From: Sulfitobacter mediterraneus
GTDB lineage: Bacteria > Pseudomonadota > Alphaproteobacteria > Rhodobacterales > Rhodobacteraceae
NCBI RefSeq assembly: GCF_016801775.1
Contig: NZ_CP069004.1
Span: 2,108,001-2,172,000, forward strand
Length of the DNA: 64,000 nt
Reading direction: 5' to 3'
The translations under genes and the position numbers were made by a program. Shown piece after piece: positions 4,061-5,595 of the stretch. A model generated the notes under the pieces. The model ran no database searches. It had not been told where the DNA came from and was given only the letters and a program-made list of their open reading frames with translations. How positions within the stretch are numbered: the stretch's first letter is position 1; every line of letters starts with the position of its first letter.

Positions 4061-5287
4061 CTACTCCGCCGCAAGTGAATTAGGGGCGAGCCGCGCGGAC
4101 AGGGTCCCGCAGTACCAATCGACAAACTGCGCAACGCCGGATTCCTGCGTGGGCGAATAGGGACCGGGTGTATAGGCCGGCGAATTGATACCCTTTTGAT
4201 TGTCTTCGACAACGCGGCGGTCTTCGTCATTGGTGGCCATCCAGACCTCGGTCAAACGTTTCAGGTCATAATCCACGCCCTCAACCGCATCTTTGTGAAC
4301 CAGCCATTTGGTGGTGACTTCGGTTTCCGTCGGGCTCACGGGTGTTACACGAAAGATGATGGAATGATCCGGCAGGAAATGGTTCCACGTCGAGGGATAG
4401 TGGAACTTCAGCAAGGTGCCAGCATCATCAAATGGCACGCGGCCCAACCAGCGGCGCACGGCGGTTTTCCCATCCAGAGTATAGCTTTTGGCGCCTTCTT
4501 TCAGTGGCATCCGCGCAAGCCGGTATTGGCCGCCTGCGTCCAGCTGGAAATCCGACCGGATGCCCGCTGCTTCACAACGTTGGAAATGCGCGGCCAAGGC
4601 GGGTGGCGTGTCGCCAGCTTCAATTCCAGTGACAGATGGATCATCGGGGAAGGTTCGGCACAGCGAGGGATGGTTGCCACCGCAATGGTAGCACTCGCGG
4701 TTGTTTTCCCAGACCAGCTTCCAATTGCCATTCTCGATGATCGAACTTTCGAACGCCACCTTGGCATTGCCCAGATCATGGGGTTCCAGATAAGGTGCGG
4801 CCAGTTCTGCAAAACTGTCAAAATCGGGCGCTTCGTCCCCCAGACAGATGTAAACCAGCCCAGCCAGCTCGCGGCAGTGCACCGACTTCAAACGATGTTT
4901 GGAAGGGTCAAAGTCCGGTCCCATGTCACGCGCCCATAGAAGTGAACCGTCCAGCTCATAGGTCCATTGATGATAAGGGCAGACCAGCTTTGGCGCGTTG
5001 CCTTTGGCGGCGGTACAAATCACCGACCCACGGTGGCGGCAGGAGTTGTGGAACGCGCGAATCTGGCCATCCGCACCGCGAACGATGATGACGCGATAGG
5101 CACCAACGGTGTGGGTGATATAGCTGCCGGGCTTTTCCAACTCACAGGCCGCGACCGCAAACAACCAATCACGGTAGAAGATCGTTTCAAGATCGGTCTG
5201 AAACACCGCCGGATCATTGTAGAACGGTTGCTCCAACGCGTAACCGATCTGGCGTCCCGCAAGCAATGCATTGATATCGTTGTTCAT
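4061..5287 (-). CDS. gbcA: Glycine betaine monooxygenase, Rieske oxygenase subunit
   Basis: A 408-residue cytoplasmic oxygenase that demethylates glycine betaine to dimethylglycine with release of formaldehyde. The Rieske ligands are C83-x-H85 (SCRHRG) and C103-x2-H106 (CPYHQW). The mononuclear iron site lies in [13 protein letters not shown] at about residues 200-213. The start at 5287 ([13 protein letters not shown]) is chosen because GGGAAG precedes it and the upstream extension is non-conserved sequence belonging to the riboswitch leader. A cobalamin riboswitch lies 133 nt upstream. Dimethylglycine, its product, would be used by the dehydrogenase at 13-15.5 kb. A stachydrine or carnitine oxygenase is the main alternative. 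Confidence 0.87.
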
Positions 5288-5419
5288 CTTGTGCTTCCCG
5301 GCCGCTGGGCGCGGCGTTGCTGGAGCGATCGGCAGCACAGCGCGGGGGTGGGCGCCACAAGGAGGACGTGCACCCAAGCCAGCGCCTGCACCGCCGCCCG
5401 CGGATTGACGTTTTGCAAG

Positions 5420-5595
5420 GCTGGTTTCCGGGCTTGGAAGGTGCCAATGGCACGGTCGCATCGCCTTCCCGAGGTCCTCTCTCAGTGGCGTTTGGTTGCG
5501 ACCTTCCCTTCCTTACCGTTGCGGGGGCAGCGCCGGATTTGCACCAGCTTCCCAATTCTCCGCCTCCCCCAAGGTTTGAGAAAAGCAGCACCTTA
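5420..5595 (-). promoter_or_regulatory. Cobalamin (B12) riboswitch in the gbcAB leader
   Basis: Read on the minus strand, the aptamer core is nearly canonical. GGGAAGCTGGTGCAAATCC is followed by CCCCCGCAACGGTAA, then the B12 box (GCCACTG ... CGGGAAGGC), and closes with AAGCCCGGAAACCAGC. About 132 nt separate the aptamer from the gbcA start. A GC hairpin (5301-5315, GCCGC/GCGGC) sits directly next to the gbcA Shine-Dalgarno, and no U-tract follows, so translational control is more likely than termination. Such switches usually lower expression when adenosylcobalamin is present. Control of a Rieske oxygenase is unusual. Confidence 0.92.

Follow-up and report, generated by a model that had tools for sequence, protein, structure and literature searches.

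Isozymes of B12-dependent enzymes form one regulon class, as described in sections of PMC3766115, and the metE/metH pair has been tested for cobalamin riboswitch regulation, as sections of PMC9600662 report. According to passages of PMC12478193, Ruegeria pomeroyi requires MtgC and MtgD to grow on glycine betaine as well as to make methionine, MtgB is the proposed first enzyme of this system, DUF1638 is linked to cobalamin recharging, and there are bacteria with GbcAB but without MtgBCDE. The sole use of the word "riboswitch" in the main text of that paper occurs in a reference title. Among the matches listed from the open-access literature (papers without their supplements), none dealt with a B12 switch ahead of a Rieske or betaine demethylase.

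The window, a 64,000-nucleotide stretch of the Sulfitobacter mediterraneus genome that was analysed as a whole, carries a cobalamin riboswitch in the leader of a Rieske oxygenase gene. The parts of this locus are as follows:

5402..5610, minus strand: cobalamin riboswitch aptamer RF00174 (cmscan)
5522..5527, minus strand: L5 loop CCCCCG, the aptamer half of the expected kissing loop (aptamer alignment)
5391..5403, minus strand: hairpin CCGC[GGGCG]GCGG, P13-like, just 3' of the aptamer (sequence; the motif recurs in relatives)
5301..5315, minus strand: hairpin GCCGC[GCCCA]GCGGC adjoining the ribosome binding site (RBS) (sequence)
5294..5299, minus strand: RBS-like GGGAAG (sequence)
4061..5287, minus strand: Rieske oxygenase subunit gene, earlier called gbcA (NF058607 score, PDB matches, tree, diagnostic columns)
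2979..4055, minus strand: gene of the ferredoxin-NAD(P)H reductase partner, earlier called gbcB (NF058606 score)

A preliminary description of this DNA had reported a near-canonical B12 aptamer in the minus-strand leader and had proposed a search with the Rfam cobalamin (RF00174) covariance model. That search bears the report out: the match at 5610-5402 (minus strand) scores 113 bits (E 1.6e-27), well over the gathering score of 31.5, and runs the full length of the model (positions 1-189 of 189). The interval given earlier, 5287-5595, comprises most of the aptamer and the expression platform to the first base of the start codon. From the end of the aptamer at 5402 to the oxygenase ATG at 5287 there are about 115 bases on the same strand, and the reductase gene begins 5 bases 3' of the oxygenase gene, forming a two-gene operon that is very likely controlled by the riboswitch. 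The whole genome (4.2 Mb, five contigs) has two RF00174 matches in total, the second of which precedes cbtB-cbtA and cobW-cobN (genes read by eye). The closest protein from a named strain, at 96% identity, belongs to Sulfitobacter mediterraneus DSM 12244.

Other Rfam matches in the window are one tRNA and one L2-Alphaproteobacteria ribosomal protein leader (61281-61350, minus strand, 64.5 bits). The window also encodes an HD-domain protein with weak similarity to phosphonate oxygenases of the PhnZ/TmpB type (356-958, minus strand) and a lone condensation-domain protein (PF00668; 10231-11595, minus strand), none of the nine proteins scanned being recognised as a synthetase.

The gene names gbcA and gbcB, under which the operon was originally described, could not be upheld. 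The oxygenase scores 510 bits against the NCBIfam GbcA model (NF058607, cut-off 670) and the reductase 371 bits against the GbcB model (NF058606, cut-off 500), and six relatives score 466-521 bits against the GbcA model. A survey of 349 Pseudomonadota genomes found 17 with a protein over the GbcA cut-off, none of them from the class of the window; two of these (G524 and G546) also carry a second protein below the cut-off, and the window genome has no second oxygenase match at E 1e-120. Proteins over the cut-off form a separate clade in a FastTree phylogeny, and the window protein falls in a large radiation together with Stc2 of Sinorhizobium meliloti, its clade lying beside the Stc2 clade, not inside it (support of the joining node, 0.53). 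At 32 alignment columns that separate GbcA from Stc2, it agrees with Stc2 in 27, with GbcA in two and with neither in three. Orthology with GbcA was rejected on the NCBIfam score, the tree position and these columns. Glycine betaine, the substrate assigned earlier, is thus a guess, because the genes are not GbcAB by orthology and Stc2, the closest enzyme of characterised function, demethylates proline betaine.

The nearest PDB chains are 3n0q (775 bits) and Stc2 itself (3vca, 662 bits). The Cys-X-X-Cys pair of Rieske group Vb and the two His that bind the mononuclear iron are found, with Stc2 positions 202, 204, 205 and 209 identical in 34 of 34 rows of the window clade, and Trp353 of Stc2 is conserved in the window protein. 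The position of Stc2 Ala223 is Thr in the window protein, in most of its clade and also in the Salipiger clade; active-site letters were dropped as a guide to substrate because this Thr is common to both clades. On the basis of the scores, tree, diagnostic columns and distribution of the switch, the oxygenase is named here as a predicted Stc2-like quaternary-ammonium N-demethylase.

Searching 80 named loci of oxygenase relatives with the Rfam model revealed RF00174 directly upstream and on the same strand in 24, comprising 23 complete aptamers and one remnant (L028, 32.0 bits). Switched loci occur in Sulfitobacter, Ruegeria, Shimia, Phaeobacter, Pseudophaeobacter and Leisingera and also in Roseibium, Marivivens, Loktanella, Gemmobacter and one Rhizobiales genome. 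A sample of 248 genomes of the window's family was also searched; 60 have an oxygenase match at E 1e-60, and leaving out 12 weak ones (at most 44% identity) gave 48, of which 20 have the switch before the gene, all confirmed by Rfam. The 28 switchless genomes were scored by Rfam on their own loci in six cases (L100, L101, L112, L141, L153 and L160) and otherwise by a pattern rule, which in the named set recovered all 23 complete Rfam matches lying upstream of the gene. A phylum-wide search yielded 12 further genomes below the GbcA cut-off, eight of which have the switch directly before the gene (Rfam): G537 from the window's family and seven (G513, G367, G439, G504, G298, G317 and G545) from f10, another family of the same class. 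There is none in G518 or in G492, G352 and G290 of f10, so that seven of ten f10 genomes are switched.

When the two PDB rows are left out of the protein tree and the remnant is scored as switchless, the switch is present at 48 of 152 tips, and 13 changes suffice to explain this pattern as compared with a mean of 41 and a minimum of 31 for shuffled labels. The switch clusters in three principal clades, having been both gained and lost, and lies at a steady distance of about 100-185 bases from the gene. The pattern rule found no switch in the Stc2 clade or its Salipiger relatives (32 loci, one with a leader of only 480 bases), and one genome (G091) has a Stc2-clade copy without the switch and a non-Stc2 copy with it. 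Because none of these 32 loci is switched, the switch goes with particular paralogues. B12 control is not essential to the operon, since the switch is missing before it in G290, G352, G492 and many relatives.

The hairpin at the oxygenase RBS had been taken earlier as a sign of translational control. The hairpin is present (5315-5301, followed by GGGAAG at 5299-5294 and the ATG at 5287), and there is no terminator-like site between the aptamer and the oxygenase gene in the window, the sole such site found (5881-5863, minus strand) lying upstream of the aptamer. L5 reads CCCCCG in all 42 leaders listed, two of them repeats, a count to be read with the fact that the search pattern itself required most of these letters and allowed one mismatch. 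Further comparisons used 40 unique leaders, with those of f10 outside the set and related leaders not independent of one another: a CCGC-N3-6-GCGG hairpin lies shortly 3' of the aptamer in 32, a hairpin adjoins the RBS in 36 (vs 17.4 +/- 2.7 in dinucleotide shuffles), and GGG matching L5 stands at the loop of the best pre-RBS hairpin in 27 (vs 1.4 +/- 1.2 in shuffles). The stems of the pre-RBS hairpins vary by clade (GCCGC/GCGGC, CCGTGC/GCACGG and CCGGC/GCCGG). These recurrent hairpins fit an L5-L13 kissing loop that would cover the RBS.

In the window leader itself the RBS hairpin loop, GCCCA, is not complementary to L5, and only the hairpin at 5391-5403 fits as the L5 partner, with a loop that could pair with L5. 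A two-state accessibility model of the leader gave no closing of the RBS with the aptamer set apart (mean 0.36 vs 0.41), and shuffled sequences fold as stably as the expression platform (z -0.23). The missing terminator and the recurrent pre-RBS hairpin fit the earlier suggestion of translational control. Overall, translational OFF control is likely; the OFF direction is likewise likely by analogy with known members, as described in sections of PMC9600662.

It had also been proposed that the same genome would encode a corrinoid methyltransferase of the MttB/MtgB type, and a search for the superfamily revealed five MttB-family (PF06253) genes. One of them, at C1:825905, is closest to MtgB, with 416 bits to the glycine betaine methyltransferase 9yce (342, 294, 237 and 200 bits for the other four) and 708 bits to 4yyc, which we take to come from S. 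meliloti. Methionine synthase is represented by split pieces, the corrinoid (MtgC, C1:1067845), pterin (MtgD, C1:1013481) and homocysteine (MtgE, C1:1065641) parts, and a DUF1638-like gene follows mtgC. The window genome has no classical, full-length MetH and no MetE match, and it encodes NrdJ, the class II B12-dependent ribonucleotide reductase. MetE was dropped as an explanation because no full-length MetE was found in 47 of the 48 sampled family genomes.

Whether the switch tracks this counterpart depends on the gene that is counted. Because an MtgB-like gene is nearly universal in the family (228 of 248 genomes), its presence alone is weak evidence and the family test has little power (20/20 with the switch vs 25/28 without, p 0.26, not significant); it was dropped as a discriminator. 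MtgC gave a similar result in the family sample (19/20 vs 24/28, p 0.38, not significant), the sole switched genome without it (G118) being 84% complete. The association reached significance in the named set (24/24 with the switch, the remnant included, vs 17/26 without, p 0.0018; 23/23 and p 0.0019 without the remnant), where the 26 switchless genomes were taken from the top of the switchless loci as ranked by match, and in the named and family sets merged by hand without repeats (40/41 vs 39/51, p 0.005). These tests cover the named and family sets, with f10 outside, and their p values are too small because relatives are not independent. MtgC coexists with the Stc2-type oxygenase in 43 of the 48 family genomes that carry the oxygenase. 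Within the mostly switched clade B, one genome (G046) is without the oxygenase switch, the MtgB-like gene and MtgC and keeps a 147.6-bit B12 switch before nrdIEF, whereas another (G135) is a counter-case, lacking the switch yet having both genes. When the oxygenase switch is not counted, family genomes with a switched demethylase have a mean of 3.9 B12 switches, as compared with 2.7 in the others (p 0.03).

Gene neighbourhoods in relatives place B12-related functions beside the switched operon. Roseibium hamelinense and R. aquae (L026 and L027) have mtgC and a DUF1638 gene (assigned by Pfam in L026) divergent from it, and the Roseibium MtgC is 80% identical to that of the window genome and has both B12-binding domains. 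The operon stands beside nrdI, nrdE or nrdF in L015, L019, L021, L029, L130, L132 and L133, the first four being the only cases among the 24 named switched loci (flanks of at most 3.5 kb). The nrdIEF genes, the B12-independent counterpart of NrdJ, are likewise behind B12 switches of their own in relatives (L029, L130, L132, L133, L198, L199, L200, L203 and L210), with an NrdH-like gene, read by eye, after the switch in L132, L198 and L203. Where two such units diverge, each has a complete aptamer of its own.

Several further arrangements were observed. A second B12 riboswitch stands back to back with the oxygenase switch in L015:2841-3041 (minus strand), where it reads towards a DUF4198 gene, and in G537:C1:2135156-2135349 (plus strand). 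Among the loci examined for neighbours, an MttB gene adjoins the switched operon only in Ruegeria sp. Ofav3-42 (L016:363-1841, minus strand), where it lies upstream on the opposite strand and its product is 44% identical to that of C1:1500428. In Mameliella a Stc2-like oxygenase/reductase pair that lacks the switch is followed directly by an MttB gene (L074:5931-7493, plus strand; 81% identical to C1:2538155); the two kinds of enzyme may be linked there in an operon. A small gene (about 100 codons; L130:11370-11672, plus strand) comes immediately after a B12 riboswitch in L130 and also in L196, L197 and L131, adjoining metH or the switched oxygenase operon; the L196, L197 and L131 copies are 45-68% identical to that of L130, which has no Pfam match at E up to 1. 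A B12-switched metH in L130, L196 and L197 was rejected since the switches precede this gene, and an oxygenase operon running into metH in L131 and L132 was dropped since metH has an upstream region of its own. A palindrome of the CATGA/TCATG type, read by eye upstream of metH in L130, L197 and L131, resembles the sites of regulators of methionine-cycle genes.

The reading that we favour, and consider reasonably probable, is that a cobalamin OFF riboswitch acts on the operon of a Stc2-like Rieske betaine N-demethylase and its reductase, which would serve as a B12-sparing backup. When B12 is plentiful, the aptamer would bind it as ligand and the operon would be held down, probably by blocking of the RBS, and methyl groups of the betaine type would pass through the corrinoid methyltransferase system of an MttB-family enzyme with MtgC/MtgD. 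When B12 is scarce, the operon would be made and demethylation would go on by O2 chemistry, sparing B12 for NrdJ and for methionine synthesis by the same MtgC/D with MtgE. Sharing of a substrate is part of this proposal; the two demethylation systems may act on different compounds.

One alternative starts from the substrate: the switched enzyme would demethylate proline betaine (stachydrine) or hydroxyproline betaine, and its B12-dependent partner would be not MtgB but an MtpB-like enzyme, MtpB being another member of the MttB family. Stc2 is the nearest characterised enzyme, most of the diagnostic columns (27/32) are Stc2-like, and the genome has four further MttB paralogues that could share MtgC. 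The window clade nevertheless lies beside the Stc2 clade rather than within it, the switch is present in 0/32 loci of that clade and its Salipiger relatives, and no proline betaine genes were recognised adjoining the window operon; we regard this alternative as rather unlikely.

It is less probable still that the operon is B12-regulated as a feeder of B12 synthesis, with betaine breakdown supplying 5-aminolevulinate synthesis with glycine and the corrin ring with methyl groups. Feeding of betaine raises the B12 yield of industrial producers, as sections of PMC8123684 state, and the other B12 switch of the genome precedes cob genes. The neighbours of the switched operon in relatives, however, are nrdIEF or mtgC, with no cob genes recognised beside it in the loci listed (limited reference gene set), and a DMGDH-like gene of the window (13001-15493), which would carry the route further, has no switch. 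The nrd neighbourhoods also bear on a highly improbable explanation, that the switch is really that of an adjacent nrdIEF or cobalt-uptake unit, was brought to the oxygenase by a rearrangement and has no role of its own there. Switches that stand back to back or close by, ahead of nrdIEF or DUF4198 genes, in L015, L029, L130 and L133 would suit such an origin, but nrd genes were seen in only four of the 24 named switched loci within flanks of at most 3.5 kb, the switch-to-gene distance keeps to about 100-185 bases, and divergent units each have their own complete aptamer.

Extended beyond this locus, the preferred reading of a B12-sparing backup suggests, tentatively and with somewhat more doubt than belief, that many Rhodobacteraceae and some other Alphaproteobacteria practise a triage of B12, in which riboswitches would turn on O2-dependent substitutes when B12 falls. 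A corrinoid core of MtgC/MtgD would serve both methionine synthesis and betaine breakdown. Because this core is shared and full-length MetE is missing in nearly all of the sampled family genomes (47/48), B12 could not be done without under triage. The substitutes would be the Rieske betaine demethylase and the class Ib ribonucleotide reductase, and with the bulk methyl flux taken off the corrinoid, the remaining B12 would make methionine. B12 supply would then decide the chemistry of betaine breakdown, methyl groups leaving as formaldehyde or as methyl-tetrahydrofolate. If the backup reading is true, breakdown of abundant osmolytes is tied to vitamin B12 supply, and a further enzyme type joins methionine synthases and ribonucleotide reductases as pairs whose B12-dependent or B12-free route is picked by a B12 riboswitch. 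It would also let the substrate of a large, unassigned Rieske demethylase clade be tested directly, and it would give the MtgBCDE system, described only recently, a counterpart at the level of regulation.

Comparison with the described systems places this locus near several without equating it with any. It resembles GbcAB of Pseudomonas and Chromohalobacter in a similar two-component architecture and in belonging to the same Rieske subgroup, as given in sections of PMC7948474, but its proteins score under the curated GbcA and GbcB cut-offs, and the oxygenase lies outside the GbcA clade. With Stc2 of S. meliloti (PDB 3vca and 4qup) it shares the group Vb Cys-X-X-Cys, the two His metal ligands and Trp353; it differs in its separate clade and in the Thr at the Ala223 position, and the Stc2 clade is without the B12 switch. 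Like R. pomeroyi with its MtgBCDE system, the window genome has MtgB-like, MtgC, MtgD and MtgE genes and no classical MetH, whereas here a GbcA-like enzyme, of the Stc2 type, coexists with MtgC (43/48 family genomes). The likeness to switches of the metE/metH type lies in the RF00174 aptamer, in the B12-free enzyme behind the switch and in the genome's B12-dependent system for a comparable reaction. The target here, in contrast, is a Rieske N-demethylase of betaine catabolism rather than a methionine synthase or ribonucleotide reductase, and the partner, a corrinoid methyltransferase encoded by several genes, also serves methionine synthesis.
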